Shown here piece after piece: positions 30,600-35,794 of a DNA stretch of 64,000 nt. Positions within the stretch are counted from its first letter, which is position 1; each line of letters begins with the position of its first letter. A program made the translations under genes and the position numbers. Source of the DNA: Methanosarcinales archaeon Met12 (GTDB taxonomy: Archaea; Halobacteriota; UBA148; JAJOKI01); NCBI GenBank assembly GCA_002813105.2, contig CP017966.2, forward strand, positions 248,001 through 312,000, written 5' to 3'. The notes beneath the pieces were generated by a model. That model was not told the origin of the DNA. It was given only the letters and a program-made list of their open reading frames with translations, and did no database searches.

Positions 30600-31421
30600 T
30601 TAATTGATCAACTCTCGGATTCTGTTGATCGCTTCCTTTACCGTCTTGGGCACCGGGTTTGCAACCTCGCCCTGCTCGACGAGTTCGATGAAAATCTGTG
30701 AAACGGTTGGGAGGTTCAAACCAGCCGACTCAATGATTTCACGATTTATGAGTATTTCGACCCCACCTTCAGCGAGCGTTTTTCCGTTCTCGATGATGAT
30801 GACCTTTTCTGCCCATTTTGCAACGAGATCGACATCATGGGTGGTTATCACAATCGTCTTGCCACGTTTGCTCAGGTCATCTAAAATACTTAATATCTCA
30901 TTTTTTCCAGAGGAGTCTATGTCTGTAGTCGGCTCATCTAAAACATATATGTCGGGATCCATCGCTAATACGCCAGCAATTGCAATCCGTTTCTTCTGTC
31001 CATGACTTAGATGATGCGGGAGCTTGTCATCAAATCCAACCACCCCCACGGATTTCAGCGCATTTTCAACTCGCCTTTCGATTTCAGCCTGCTCCAATCC
31101 CATGTTAATTGGCCCAAATGCGACATCTTCCCACACCGTCGTGGAAAACAATTGGTCATCTGGGCATTGGAAGACCATGCCAACGCGTTCTCGTATCCTC
31201 GCAGCATTTTCTTTCGTAATCGGTTCGCCAAAGATTTCGACCGTTCCTTTCCTTGCAGCATAAATTCCATTAAAATGTTGGAGAAGGGTTGATTTTCCAG
31301 CGCCGTTGGGGCCAAGGATAGCGGTCTTCTCGCACTCCTCGACGTCAAGGTTTACTCCTTTCAATGCATGAGTGCCATCTGGAAACCAGAACTCCAGATC
31401 TCTGACGCTAATTGCACTCAT
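30600..31421 (-). CDS. cbiO: ECF transporter ATPase (CbiO/NikO type)
   Basis: A 273-residue ABC ATPase driving metal uptake. Walker A GPNGAGKSTLLQHF is near residue 36, the signature LSHGQKKRIAIAG near 140 and Walker B DIYVLDEPTTDID near 161, followed by the H-loop TTHDVDLV. The C-terminal 60 residues are typical of CbiO. It is the last gene of the minus-strand operon cbiM-N-Q-(small peptide)-O and overlaps the small peptide stop. Cobalt or nickel cannot be told apart from this subunit. Confidence 0.92.
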   Translation of the reverse strand: MSAISVRDLEFWFPDGTHALKGVNLDVEECEKTAILGPNGAGKSTLLQHFNGIYAARKGTVEIFGEPITKENAARIRERVGMVFQCPDDQLFSTTVWEDVAFGPINMGLEQAEIERRVENALKSVGVVGFDDKLPHHLSHGQKKRIAIAGVLAMDPDIYVLDEPTTDIDSSGKNEILSILDDLSKRGKTIVITTHDVDLVAKWAEKVIIIENGKTLAEGGVEILINREIIESAGLNLPTVSQIFIELVEQGEVANPVPKTVKEAINRIRELIN

Positions 31422-31522
31422 AAGACTACCTCAAAGGCTAACAATGTGGCCCCCATTCCGATAATTCCCATCGCCTTGAGGATGTCTAGCCCAGTGAGAC
31501 TGGGTTTTGCCAGAGTTTTCAT
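31418..31522 (-). CDS. 34-residue membrane peptide in the cobalt/nickel operon
   Basis: A very short gene between cbiQ and cbiO: start ATG 31522 with the strong ribosome site GTGGGGAG directly before it, stop TGA 31418-31420 overlapping the cbiO ATG. The product has a polar start (KTLAKPSLTGLDILKA) and one membrane helix (MGIIGMGATLLAFEVVL). Tight spacing (7 bases after cbiQ, 4-base overlap with cbiO) and the ribosome site argue that it is translated. It may be a single-helix accessory subunit of the ECF complex; I know of no named family. Confidence 0.6.
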   Translation of the reverse strand: MKTLAKPSLTGLDILKAMGIIGMGATLLAFEVVL

Positions 31523-31529
31523 CTCCCCA

Positions 31530-32201
31530 CTAATATCCACGGGACCTCATCGCTTCATAAACTCGCTCTCCGCGCTCGTAGCTTTTGACAAACAACATCC
31601 CAACGGTATTTCCGATGGTTTTCATGGTGCGCATGTGCATCAAATTGCTTGACCCAAATCCACGGCTTTTTTGTGCCCGACTAATCCGCTGGAATTCGTC
31701 GATGAGCAAAAAGATGTATCGGTACGTGAACAACGTCATCTGGACAAAGATTTTTGGTATCTTTAGGTCCTCCATTGCCTTGATTAAGTCTGTGAACATG
31801 GTCGTAGACGTCAGGAGTGTTATGGTCATAACTGCCACCGTCGCCCTCAATATGACGAGTGCGGCCAGATGCAGCCCTTCTCGAGTTGCCGTCAGCGTCG
31901 TGATCACAAGGTCAAATGATATGATGGGCATCCCTTCGGGTCTGGAGAATGAAAGGAAAATGCCTAAAAAACCTCCAAACGGGATTATCCACTTGATTCT
32001 GTCTGCAATAAATCCCAAGGGTACTTTTGAAACGAGGATGAGCAGGAACACGAAAATAATCGAAGTAACCAATAGTATGATGTTATCGAGAAGTACCACC
32101 AAAATTATGAATGTGATGCATGCTAGAAACTTCGCCCTTGGATCGAGGTTATGTATTGGTGATACGAGGGTTGCATATTTGTCAATGTGTGGATGTTCCA
32201 T
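31530..32201 (-). CDS. cbiQ: ECF transporter T component (CbiQ type)
   Basis: A 223-residue membrane protein with about five to six helices, coupling the substrate-binding CbiM/CbiN unit to the ATPase. The N-terminal MEHPHIDKYATLVSPIHNLD and the cytoplasmic coupling motif in FQRISRAQKSRGFGSS (the AxxxRG box, near residue 172) define the family. A second coupling segment YEAMRSRGY ends the protein. I use ATG 32201; GTG 32210 is possible. It starts 5 bases after cbiN. Confidence 0.92.
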   Translation of the reverse strand: MEHPHIDKYATLVSPIHNLDPRAKFLACITFIILVVLLDNIILLVTSIIFVFLLILVSKVPLGFIADRIKWIIPFGGFLGIFLSFSRPEGMPIISFDLVITTLTATREGLHLAALVILRATVAVMTITLLTSTTMFTDLIKAMEDLKIPKIFVQMTLFTYRYIFLLIDEFQRISRAQKSRGFGSSNLMHMRTMKTIGNTVGMLFVKSYERGERVYEAMRSRGY

Positions 32202-32206
32202 GGGTA

Positions 32207-32464
32207 TCACGATTTTAGAGCCATTCCAAGCACGTATACAACCACCAACACCGCACCTATTCCCACCAGCCCCATTAAAAGAACAGGTATATACCCCTCG
32301 CCAAAATCGATAGGGTGCTTGTAAACTGGTTCTCCCTCTTTTACGCCTGCATGTTCCATCGTACTTCCAAGACCGTCTGGAGTATCAGCCACGAAGGGGA
32401 GGAGAGCAGCTAATAGGATAGTCATCCCAATGAGTGCTAACATCCACATCTTTACATCTTTCAT
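32207..32464 (-). CDS. cbiN: ECF small membrane subunit CbiN/NikN-like
   Basis: An 85-residue protein with two transmembrane helices (about residues 6-24 and 60-82) joined by an outside loop containing VADTPDGLGSTMEHAGV, the PDGL motif of NikN/CbiN-type partners of CbiM. It overlaps the cbiM 3-prime end by 4 bases. The partner S component, cbiM, contains an internal TAA, so this subunit may be orphaned. Confidence 0.85.
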   Translation of the reverse strand: MKDVKMWMLALIGMTILLAALLPFVADTPDGLGSTMEHAGVKEGEPVYKHPIDFGEGYIPVLLMGLVGIGAVLVVVYVLGMALKS

Positions 32465-33141
32465 GTTACAACCCTCTGAAAGGCGTTCCCCAACGTAATT
32501 CTTGGTATTTCAAGGAGATCTGGTCTCGCTTGGGCAACTATTGTGATGGCAAACACGGTTACCATTGCCTCGATGGGTGCCAGTATCGAGTGATAGAACA
32601 GCATCCAAGGTAGTGCAATGTTTAATGGTATGCCGTGCACTGCGCTCATCGACGCTGATATTCCCAGTTATAATGCGCAGGCGGTGGCAGCAGCCAGCAC
32701 CGAGAGCGATGTTGCAGTGAAGACCCCAACGAGCCTTATGTTCTTGCTAAAACGCTCAAACGGCATGTAAACGTAATATCCGACCAATGATGTGATGATT
32801 CCCAGATTTAGAATGTTTAGTCCAAGCGCTGTGATGCCACCATCACCGAAGAGCAAACATTGTATCACCAGCACGGTGGTGATGACCAATATGCCGACCA
32901 GCGGTCCAAGTAGGATGGCAACCATGGCGGCTCCAATGACATGCACGCTGGTGCCATATAGCACTGGAATGTCCAACATCTGAGCGACAAAAATCCCGGC
33001 TGCGAGAAGTGCCATCAATGGAACCTGTCGGTCTTCAAGTCTTTTGTTTGTCCCATGCACTGAAATTCCAATAAAAAGCGCTGCTACCATAAATCCAATC
33101 GCCAACAAAGGTGGCCACATCAATCCATCTGGTATGTGCAT
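32461..33141 (-). pseudogene. cbiM: ECF substrate-binding protein CbiM, interrupted by in-frame TAA
   Basis: Cobalt/nickel-binding S component. It opens with MHIPDGLMWPP, whose N-terminal Met and His2 are metal ligands, and has GTSVHVIGAAM near residue 64 and FGDGGITALGLN near 118. An ochre codon TAA at 32670-32668 (codon 158) interrupts the frame, which then continues in the same frame to the expected C-terminus (MSAVHGIPLNIALPWMLFYH). The family has Leu-Glu-Leu at this point, so GAA to TAA is the simplest change. Without the break the protein would be about 226 residues, normal length. It could be a real inactivation or a base-calling error. Confidence 0.85.
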
Positions 33142-33182: not shown

Positions 33183-33208
33183 TCATACTTAAATAAGTTT
33201 TGGTATGA
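33183..33208. promoter_or_regulatory. TCATAC-N14-GTATGA palindrome at the cbiM promoter
   Basis: TCATAC (33183-33188) and GTATGA (33203-33208) form a perfect inverted repeat 14 bases apart, covering an A+T-rich TATA-like core (AAATAAGTTT on the plus strand). It lies 42-67 bases before the cbiM start on the minus strand, the right place for a metal-responsive operator. NikR, encoded at 42261, binds half sites of similar letters (GTATGA) in bacteria, but there the half sites face the other way and are spaced 16 bases. The binding protein is therefore uncertain. The site overlaps the end of the preceding orphan gene. Confidence 0.4.
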
Positions 33209-33575
33209 AACAGTAGTTCCGAGTGGAAAAATCTGCCAAAGAATTTGAATTTTCGGATAGGGTCGGGGATGTATCGTCTCCAAAATTTTGAAATTTGCAC
33301 GATCTTCTAGACCTGAATCTGCCAATGAACTCCCCCTTTCTGTCTTTATCCAAATCTACATCGAAAAGCTTGGTCATTGCTCTCAATTCTTGATAACTTA
33401 TTATTTTTATCTCTTTATTTTTCAAAAAGGCGTTTAAAGCCTCGTCTTTTTTATCTTCTAAAAAGCAGATGCTTCTATTTTTAAACCTTATCATTTGCTC
33501 CATAGATGCTCGGCGTGCTATTTGTCTATTGAACGTTGATGATTCTCTTGAAAAAGAGATTTTCTTTTCTTTCAC
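33189..33575 (-). CDS. Orphan cassette gene 3, unknown
   Basis: A 128-residue open frame, third of three overlapping A+T-rich genes. The GTG start at 33575 overlaps the preceding gene by 50 bases; ATG 33503 (MEQMIRFKNRS) is a better-placed alternative. The middle has helical, charged sequence (FLEDKKDEALNAFLKNKEIK, then ISYQELRAMTKLFDVDLDKD). The last 30 residues run into the cbiM promoter region and may be non-native. It could also be a frameshifted continuation of the preceding gene, because a run of A-rich codons lies at the junction. No family recognised. Confidence 0.45.
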   Translation of the reverse strand: MKEKKISFSRESSTFNRQIARRASMEQMIRFKNRSICFLEDKKDEALNAFLKNKEIKIISYQELRAMTKLFDVDLDKDRKGEFIGRFRSRRSCKFQNFGDDTSPTLSENSNSLADFSTRNYCFIPKLI

Positions 33576-34221
33576 TACTTATTTTCTCTAATTCATAATT
33601 AACTAATAATTCCTTCAATCTCCCCTCGCAGTTTCTGACTATATTTGCAGCAGAAGAAATTCCAGAAACAACGAAAATCATTGGACGATGAGAGTGTACC
33701 ATTGTTACGGTTTGTTTAATTATTCCTCTTTCTGTATCAATACGTTCAACAAATAAAACATGCTTTTCTATATTTTCAAGAATGTTTCTGATATCTTTTT
33801 TGAATTTATCAACAGAATCAATATCCTCCATCAATATACCTATATATCTATTCAGAATGCCATTTTCTACAAATTGAGCGATATGTAATCCCTTAATTTC
33901 GTATTTGTTGAAAATCTTCGTCCTTAATTTGCCTCTTCTTTCCTCTTCGTTTCCCTTTTCTAAACTTCTTAGAGTTAGACCCATTTTTAATAAAAAAAGC
34001 ATTTTTTCATCTTTGATATATTCTTTGTAAATAGCTAATTCTCCAGAACGATATAATTCTTTTACTCTTTTTATTGTTTTTTTATCTTGAATAAAAGCAA
34101 GTTCTTTATCTCTAAGTTTTGATATTAATTGTCTGACCTGTTCTTTGCTCCAATCTAAGAGTCCTTCCGTTACTCCTCTTGCTACACTTTTTATAGGGTC
34201 ACGAGACGGGTCATAGGACAT
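33526..34221 (-). CDS. Orphan cassette gene 2, unknown
   Basis: A 231-residue protein without a recognised domain. The N-terminus (MSYDPSRDPIKSVARGVTEG) is followed by charged helices (LISKLRDKELAFIQDKKTIK), then a mixed alpha/beta region. The C-terminal half contains HSHRPMIFVVSGISSAANIV, a strand-turn-helix resembling a nucleotide-fold beta strand but without a known motif. ATG 34221 overlaps gene 1 by 11 bases and has GAGGAG upstream. It is translationally coupled within a minus-strand three-gene cassette. No transmembrane segment is seen. Confidence 0.6.
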   Translation of the reverse strand: MSYDPSRDPIKSVARGVTEGLLDWSKEQVRQLISKLRDKELAFIQDKKTIKRVKELYRSGELAIYKEYIKDEKMLFLLKMGLTLRSLEKGNEEERRGKLRTKIFNKYEIKGLHIAQFVENGILNRYIGILMEDIDSVDKFKKDIRNILENIEKHVLFVERIDTERGIIKQTVTMVHSHRPMIFVVSGISSAANIVRNCEGRLKELLVNYELEKISSERKENLFFKRIINVQ

Positions 34222-34453
34222 CTCCAAACTCCTCAAGATATTTGGAGATGCTCAACTCATTATCGTCAAGAATTATTTCACTTCCTGGAAGAATAACCAT
34301 ACTTTCTACTTTGATAGGTATCTCTAAATATTTGTCTAAAATTTTATTTCCTCTAGAGTCCAAAACAAATTCTCCATCTGAGTCGTATCCCAATTCCTTT
34401 AAAAGTAAAATCTTAGATTCATTGGTGACCTGTTTTAATGATATTAGTTCCAT
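34211..34453 (-). CDS. Orphan cassette gene 1, unknown
   Basis: An 80-residue acidic protein, first gene of the cassette. It reads MELISLKQVTNESKILLLKE, then DSDGEFVLDSRGNKILDKYL, with strands and helices but no known motif. ATG 34453 follows GGAGGGTGAA, a strong ribosome site, and a TATA-like GATTTAAATAG lies about 45 bases upstream on the minus strand. Small acidic partners upstream of a larger gene are common in toxin-antitoxin and defence pairs, but nothing here proves that role. Confidence 0.55.
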   Translation of the reverse strand: MELISLKQVTNESKILLLKELGYDSDGEFVLDSRGNKILDKYLEIPIKVESMVILPGSEIILDDNELSISKYLEEFGDVL

Positions 34454-34529
34454 TTCACCCTCCGTTTCCCTCCCTTGTCTATAGGAAAGGTGTACTGACT
34501 ATTTAAATCTTTTTCCCTGTCACCAGCTT

Positions 34530-34580
34530 TGCACATAAATTAGGTTCTGCACATGAATTACATGGCTTGCACATAAATTA
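34530..34580 (+). repeat. Three 13-base direct repeats TGCACATRAATTA
   Basis: Three near-identical copies: TGCACATAAATTA at 34530-34542, TGCACATGAATTA at 34548-34560 and TGCACATAAATTA at 34568-34580, with start-to-start spacing of 18 and 20 bases. They lie roughly 77-127 bases upstream of the cassette start on the minus strand. Regular spacing near two helical turns suggests cooperative binding of a repressor or initiator-like protein on one DNA face. They are too short and too close together for a CRISPR array. Confidence 0.65.
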
Positions 34581-34651
34581 CGTAAATCGATTCAAATCTA
34601 CTTGTCCAACTGCTGCATATGGTCATCGACTTGGTTGGTAGAATTTGACCT

Positions 34652-34733
34652 TCGGAAGTACTGGTGATACTAAAAACCTTAAATTTAAACCCTAAAATTT
34701 AGTTGACGGTGCCATCAACTTTCGGAACTACTG
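34652..34733 (+). repeat. Repeated TCGGAASTACTG motif
   Basis: TCGGAAGTACTG at 34652-34663 and TCGGAACTACTG at 34722-34733 are direct copies 70 bases apart. An exact inverted copy of the second lies at 33211-33222, next to the cbiM promoter. Similarity around the 34652 and 33211 copies extends over about 25 bases (ATAC-AAAAC follows each). The three copies bracket the orphan cassette. They could be operators shared by cbiM and the gate-domain transporter, or ends of an inserted segment. Confidence 0.5.
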
Positions 34734-34765
34734 ATGAAAGTGAAATACACCCAGAAAAGTTATGT

Positions 34766-34810
34766 GTTGAAACTCCGTAGGAGTTACAACTCTCGCAGAT
34801 GTTCCATCTG
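34766..34810 (+). promoter_or_regulatory. Two tandem hairpins upstream of the transporter
   Basis: A first hairpin, GTTGAAACTCC-GTA-GGAGTTACAAC (34766-34790), has an 11-base stem with one mismatch. A second, CAGATG-TTC-CATCTG (34796-34810), has a perfect 6-base stem. Both have 3-base loops and are 5 bases apart, ending 27 bases before the transporter ATG. In an RNA leader they could act as a cis-regulatory structure or attenuator; as DNA they could be protein-binding palindromes. No known riboswitch class is recognised. Confidence 0.4.
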
Positions 34811-34837
34811 TGACATATTGAAACGCTTACAACGTTG

Positions 34838-35794
34838 ATGCCAATGACGCTAATAGATGCAATCGTATCTCAGCTCACATCTCTCTGCATCAGGGTGCTT
34901 CCCCTGCTGATCATGGGCATCATAGGGGCGAACGTACTCTCGGAATTGGGATTGAGCAGGCGCTTTGCATTCCTCGTGCGACCATTAACGCGGAACGGAA
35001 ACCTGCCGGATGGGGCTGGTGTGGCAATTACGACATGCATGGCAAGCACTTCAGCCGGCTATGCGATGCTCGCAGGTTTTTATGAGCGGGGTGAGCTAAA
35101 CGAGCGGCAGGTCATCGTCACCACGCTTATGAAATCGTTTTTTGGCTCGATATCGCACATGATTCAATATCGTATACCAGTCATACTACCAATCCTTGGG
35201 ATGGCCGCAGGAGTATTATATCTGGGTGCAAGAATAGGTATCGCGCTTGGGATCACCCTATTTTCCGTCTTACTTGGACGTGTATTCCTTGAAAAGCCAG
35301 AGATACGGCGCTTTTCACCAGATGATGAAGATACTAGGTCAAATAAAGAAAAGGCGGTACAGGGGGCTAAGAAATCGATTCCAATATTATCAAAAGTGAT
35401 TCCCAGACTGTTCATCGTATATCTAATCGTGAGCATCATGATGCAACTCGGATGGCTTGATGTCATTTCGGGGGTTGCCGAGCCTGCAACAGGTCTTGTG
35501 GGGCTCCCTGGCGAATCCGCGATCGTCATAGCCACTCTGATATTCGAATATACATCTGGCGTCATCATCGCTGGAACGCTTCTACATAAACAAATTCTGA
35601 CCCCGGTGCAAACGGTCTGCGCGCTTCTTCTGGGCGGAATCATCTCGATGTCTGTGATGTATGTCAGGCATTCGCTGCCATCGAAAATAGCATATTTTGG
35701 GGCCAAGATGGGTACGAAGATAGCGCTTTATAATCTCATTGTCGATTTGGTTTTCACGTCCATCGTGCTGGTAGTATTATTATTGCAAATGTGA
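34838..35794 (+). CDS. Gate-domain (nucleoside-recognition-like) membrane transporter
   Basis: A 318-residue polytopic membrane protein. Two gate-like halves are visible, the first with CMASTSAGYAMLAGFYERGE near residue 73 and the second with LIFEYTSGVIIAGTLL near 247. The spacing fits the gate/nucleoside-recognition family, used by diverse transporters and not proof of a nucleoside substrate. It has about eight membrane helices and a charged loop near residue 160. ATG 34838 is used; TTG 34835 precedes it. It lies between the cobalt and nickel uptake loci and shares a motif with the cbiM promoter, so metal-related transport is one guess. Confidence 0.75.
   Translation: MPMTLIDAIVSQLTSLCIRVLPLLIMGIIGANVLSELGLSRRFAFLVRPLTRNGNLPDGAGVAITTCMASTSAGYAMLAGFYERGELNERQVIVTTLMKSFFGSISHMIQYRIPVILPILGMAAGVLYLGARIGIALGITLFSVLLGRVFLEKPEIRRFSPDDEDTRSNKEKAVQGAKKSIPILSKVIPRLFIVYLIVSIMMQLGWLDVISGVAEPATGLVGLPGESAIVIATLIFEYTSGVIIAGTLLHKQILTPVQTVCALLLGGIISMSVMYVRHSLPSKIAYFGAKMGTKIALYNLIVDLVFTSIVLVVLLLQM

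Follow-up and report, generated by a model that had tools for sequence, protein, structure and literature searches.

Two overlapping genes on the minus strand of the window (the whole stretch of 64,000 nucleotides that was analysed) constitute an obligate two-gene cassette, in which a small gene, A, precedes a larger gene, B, often with overlapping frames. The pairing is well supported by the loci read in this study, and the cassette is patchily distributed and laterally transferred. We give an about even chance to the reading that A and B form a mobile toxin-antitoxin-like cassette of a new type, with A neutralizing B. No description of the pair was found in the libraries and open-access papers searched, and it is present in roughly a tenth or less of the sampled DPANN genomes. 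DPANN are tiny symbiotic archaea that reportedly have little restriction-modification and CRISPR-Cas (PMC12988326), and many of their genes still lack an explanation. The lateral transfer of the pair to another archaeal phylum is supported by a tree. The cassette is a concrete candidate conflict or addiction module, and it can also serve to trace gene flow between DPANN and larger archaea.

Organization of the cassette in the window

Gene A (34211-34453, minus strand), the first gene of the cassette, encodes an acidic protein of 80 aa with a pI of 4.3. It has homologues at all A-B loci, and its first ATG is preceded by a strong Shine-Dalgarno sequence, GGAGGGTG, at 34456-34463 on the minus strand. 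Gene B (33526-34221, minus strand) follows as the second gene with a basic product of 231 aa (pI 9.5), counted from the ATG at 34221. The end of gene A overlaps the start of gene B by 11 bp (34211-34221, minus strand), and both this overlap and the start of gene B are conserved in relatives. A purine-rich stretch, GAGGAGTTTGGAG, located within the last codons of gene A (34222-34234, minus strand) and the same or similar in 12 aligned relatives, is the likely ribosome-binding site of gene B. Judged from its sequence, the TATA-like box TTTAAATA (34500-34507, minus strand), about 46 bp upstream of the start codon of gene A, is the probable promoter of the pair; TATA-like or A+T-rich stretches are also found upstream of gene A in several relatives.

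Three 17-bp direct repeats, spaced 18 and 20 bp, are located upstream of the promoter at 34529-34583 and are possible regulator sites. Their 13-bp core is present there in three exact copies, against 0.29 expected window-wide with one mismatch allowed. The repeats were not found in the relative L011, from a Euryarchaeota MAG, and therefore seem particular to the window copy. In the intergenic region upstream of gene A (34640-34830), the near-repeats CTTCGGAAGTACTGGTGA and CTTTCGGAACTACTGATGA were also observed.

The G+C content of the two genes is 30.9%, compared with a window mean of 44.7%. Across 631 sliding windows of 928 bp no lower value was obtained, which marks the pair as the stretch of the window richest in A+T. 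The dN/dS values calculated against close relatives are 0.06-0.17 for A and 0.13-0.42 for B, and this purifying selection indicates that both are real genes. A preliminary description of this DNA had reported minus-strand genes of 80 and 231 aa overlapping by 11 bases, rich in A+T, with a good ribosome site on the first gene and regularly spaced repeats upstream, all of which is borne out here. Its suggestion that the second gene might be frameshifted does not apply, since gene B in the window is intact and collinear with its relatives.

Pairing, distribution and lateral transfer

The first search with B retrieved one distant relative in 100 genomes, with a homologue of A directly upstream, and a single-protein scan of genome contigs with B found nothing. 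A profile of A detected 12 loci over the genome contigs, and A profiles located the pair in records of Pacearchaeota, Nanoarchaeota, Aenigmatarchaeota, Woesearchaeota, Methanosarcinaceae, Methanoperedens and Methanonatronarchaeales. Among the 53 loci of the profile-scanned set, defined by a match to the gene A profile, 50 have gene B directly after gene A and on its strand; the three exceptions comprise two loci located at contig ends and one in which gene B is broken. Seven divergent loci detected only through B were read, and every one possesses an A-like ORF directly upstream, with scores of 19.7-50.2 bits versus a maximum of 7.0 bits among 273 control ORFs. Gene B without gene A was never found in the loci read. 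Co-occurrence in varied contexts, which the preliminary description had proposed as the sign of a transferable module, is thus seen for A and B, whose neighbours differ at nearly every locus, and is not seen for the third gene that it had included. Nor did its two grounds for rejection materialize: no match to a housekeeping family was obtained for B, and many genomes carry the pair. At one locus (L163:5890-7032, genome G240), an open frame of 380 aa includes an A-like stretch and precedes a weak relative of B, which may reflect a fusion of gene A to another domain.

In sampled whole genomes, gene A is present in 27 of 371 and 15 of 145 genomes of two DPANN phyla and in 9 of 393 Halobacteriota, a patchy distribution corresponding to about 7-10% and about 2% of genomes, respectively. 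One copy resides on the plasmid pSTJ002 of the haloarchaeon Halobacterium hubeiense. No cassette was found in the phage collection or in viral contigs, and B proteins searched against viral contigs, phages and plasmids retrieved only the Halobacterium plasmid itself. In the haloarchaeal version on this plasmid (L093:9645-11395), B has 332 aa and is followed by a 129-aa protein that appears by eye to be membrane-spanning. The genome to which the window belongs consists of one 1.07-Mb contig. The pair is absent from the ten other genomes searched in its order, its genus included. As a separate observation, McrA (PF02745) was found in none of 11 genomes of the order, that of the window included, although the phylum holds many methanogens.

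In a phylogenetic tree of A and B, the copies from the window and from the Euryarchaeota MAG fall within a DPANN clade with support of 95/89, and a tree forcing the DPANN copies together was rejected (AU p 2e-7); some branches elsewhere in the tree are long. The tree contradicts host taxonomy. The nesting of the window copy in a DPANN clade implies that it was acquired laterally, and its absence from the other genomes of the order makes lateral acquisition the simplest reading. Mobility is further indicated by strong flanking direct repeats, which were detected in 5 of 45 loci with enough flank, versus 1 of 120 control placements that were not matched for intergenic position (p 0.006). The best explanation is a cassette that moves chiefly among DPANN archaea and has entered Halobacteriota, the genome of the window among them.

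Predicted folds and proposed function of the cassette

Sequence searches of Pfam, NCBIfam, PHROGs, PADLOC and PDB with the cassette proteins gave chance-level matches only, which agrees with the earlier observation that the genes lack recognised domains, and the pair is accordingly filed in no known toxin-antitoxin family. A weak likeness to YqaI (PF09466) was seen in 5 of 14 A members (best E 0.023), with the window A scoring 13.7 bits, under the curated cut-off of 20.2. YqaI, a Bacillus protein, differs from A in that no pairing with a B-like gene is known for it. The model of A (pLDDT 84) has no fold match, and no antitoxin fold was recognised in it; a DNA-binding domain of the antitoxin kind (HTH, RHH, AbrB) may yet be present.

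The AlphaFold model of B has a mean pLDDT of 83, exceeding 90 for most of residues 70-220, with residues 1-40 uncertain, and displays a helical part at the N-terminus and an Alba-like fold at the C-terminus. The predicted domain comprises codons 152-228 (33538-33768, minus strand) in the order b-a-b-a-b-b, which was compared with the layout b1-a1-b2-a2-b3-b4 given in a review of Alba (PMC11621453). Aligned with VIA-align, these residues superpose on Pyrococcus Alba 2z7c with a Z of 11.1 and an rmsd of 1.9 A over 73 residues. Proteins of the Alba or Rpp20/25/Pop type fill the first 26 rows listed; after them come SpoVS, with a Z near 8, and Smr, TusA and IF3-type folds, at 6-8. These searches bear on the Alba-like domain, and the N-terminal helical part is barely covered by them. 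In a Foldseek comparison with viral models, no E fell under 0.001. The C-terminal domain of B is predicted to have the Alba fold.

No match to Alba by sequence was obtained among 13 B proteins at E up to 1, and HHalign of B against 28 archaeal Albas was not significant (P 0.47 over 16 columns). The archaeal Alba stretches NKPxMNYV and RGRAISRAV were not seen by eye at the matching strands of B. We therefore use 'Alba-like' for the fold of B only and leave the protein outside the Alba family; for the same reason the case for nucleic-acid binding by B derives from its fold, and such binding is a tentative prediction that we place somewhat below an even chance. With Alba/Sac10b (PF01918) and Rpp20/Rpp25/Pop6/Pop7, B shares the predicted b-a-b-a-b-b arrangement of residues 152-228 at Z 8-11. 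It differs from them in lacking a sequence-profile match and in possessing an added N-terminal helical part, a strict partner, A, and a patchy, mobile distribution. SpoVS, of the same general fold (Z about 8), is a bacterial sporulation protein that stands alone and has about 90 residues. Among the polar residues of catalytic type in B, none is strongly conserved; the conserved positions of B are mostly hydrophobic, glycine or tyrosine and do not suggest a catalytic role. The word Alba is absent from a survey of archaeal dark matter (PMC6393860) and from a 2026 survey of archaeal immunity (PMC12988326).

The organization of the cassette resembles that of type II toxin-antitoxin operons, with a small acidic protein first (median pI of A 4.3), a larger and mostly basic one second (median pI of B 8.7), and overlapping frames. 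As in such operons, the genes are adjacent, co-oriented and coupled, the partners occur together, the second gene was never seen without the first, and the distribution is patchy and laterally transferred. Unlike them, the pair lacks known toxin or antitoxin domains as well as conserved catalytic residues, and the candidate toxin B is larger, at about 220-340 aa. Several B proteins are acidic (e.g. L011, L015, L018), which, like the failure to recognise a known toxin family or antitoxin fold, speaks against the toxin-antitoxin-like reading. Under that reading, acidic A would bind the mostly basic B and keep it in check. Free B, possibly dimeric, would use its Alba-like domain to bind nucleic acid or ribonucleoprotein and would hinder growth by a non-enzymatic route. 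Loss of B would then be tolerated, while loss of A with B alive would not. For toxicity of B with neutralization by A, we find the probabilities evenly balanced. The fuller picture, a new class of toxin-antitoxin system in archaea whose non-enzymatic toxin clamps nucleic acid or ribonucleoprotein via its Alba-like domain, is checked by a small acidic partner and is traded between DPANN and larger archaea, possibly their hosts, is possible and rather doubtful as a whole.

Gene B is disrupted and gene A intact in eight loci, and the lesions differ. They consist of a small tandem duplication causing a frameshift (L010), one frameshift each in L123 and L125, one in-frame nonsense codon each in L120, L122 and L135, a truncation (L128), and an early stop with a frameshift (L173). 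No broken gene A was found among the 53 scanned loci. A split of this kind is expected from gene length alone with P of about 0.09, so the bias is a hint and not a proof, and assembly errors may explain some of the broken genes; both points count against the toxin-antitoxin-like reading. Programmed frameshifting was considered as the cause of the split genes and rejected, since the lesions vary in kind and place. The resemblance to toxin-antitoxin modules noted in the preliminary description is strengthened by pair structure, charge, patchiness and the loci with broken B and intact A, while toxicity and neutralization are proposed.

The main rival is a regulatory complex. A and B would be a harmless two-subunit regulator or a chaperone of RNA or DNA, with B attached to nucleic acid by its Alba-like domain and the pair tuning expression or stress survival, and their strict co-occurrence would reflect an obligate heterocomplex and not addiction. 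The Alba-like fold of B, the acidic and basic partners, the purifying selection on both genes and the obligate pairing are all consistent with it. However, a housekeeping regulator would not usually be patchily spread and laterally transferred, even onto a plasmid, and the repeated breakage of B beside an intact A is not what an obligate complex predicts, because loss of one subunit should release both. We regard this explanation as unlikely, though a serious one.

An antiviral defence module, with A sensing or restraining and B acting as an abortive effector freed on infection, appears improbable. It would suit a compact, patchy and laterally transferred two-gene unit, and compact systems have been suggested to be favoured in DPANN archaea (PMC12988326). 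Defence islands often contain two-gene toxin-antitoxin operons (PMC6393860). The neighbours of the cassette change from locus to locus; some are restriction-modification genes, such as a type IIG-like enzyme upstream in L012. However, when 148 neighbour proteins were compared with 148 control proteins from matched regions, only about two strong restriction-modification matches were found near the cassette and the rest were mostly ordinary, so a defence-island setting is not shown; the lack of clear defence enrichment also weighs against the toxin-antitoxin-like reading. In addition, the window A and B match none of the PADLOC anti-phage models, and viral contigs gave no match.

Still less probable is that a larger integrative element, with remnants differing by locus, carried the pair as passive cargo or as maintenance genes. 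The L011 cassette, which sits between nop56 and the fibrillarin gene, is flanked on both sides by a 168-bp direct repeat (region L011:5276-7240) made up of the end of nop56 and the start of fibrillarin, the left fibrillarin copy being truncated. Repeats of 39-52 bp flank the copies in L131, L015, L172 and L010. Tyrosine recombinase genes lie beside the cassette in L014 and L060, and the plasmid copy also fits such cargo. Against this, the L011 insert is about 1.8 kb and holds A and B without an integrase, most loci, the window included, have no flanking repeat, and no common element was seen. The repeat in L131 (genome G525) is a perfect one of 52 bp, at -212 and +104 around the pair, and holds the inverted repeats TTAGTAAGCGA and TCGCTTACTAA, which are att- or transposon-end-like.

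Third open reading frame and surroundings of the window copy

The preliminary description had counted a third gene in the cassette, and its role as a functional partner now seems very improbable: an open frame of 104-128 aa with similarly low G+C does follow gene B, but this frame, ORF C (33189-33503 from its first ATG, minus strand), has no significant homologue in 41 related genomes, no Pfam match and no counterpart in the closest homologous locus, L011. No credible relative was found in 34 genomes carrying A and B (matches of E 0.007 or weaker), and its sole PADLOC match is a weak, chance-level one (E 0.0088). The first ATG, at 33503, sits 23 bp past the stop of gene B. Of the overlaps described previously, that of 11 bp is real, while that of 50 bp exists only with a far-upstream GTG start of ORF C.

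The cassette had also been described as lying between cobalt and nickel uptake loci. This is fair for one side, where cbiM-type ECF genes occupy 30600-33141; the other side starts with a membrane protein gene (34835-35794). Beyond the latter come a solute-binding lipoprotein and two permeases. In an empty-site comparison, the neighbourhood upstream of cbiM differed between genomes of the order. The cbiM-like gene (32461-33141, minus strand) is split by an in-frame TAA into pieces of 157 and 62 aa, whereas in its relatives within the order the frame stays open over 217-225 aa; a pseudogene, a sequencing error or recoding are the alternatives for it.
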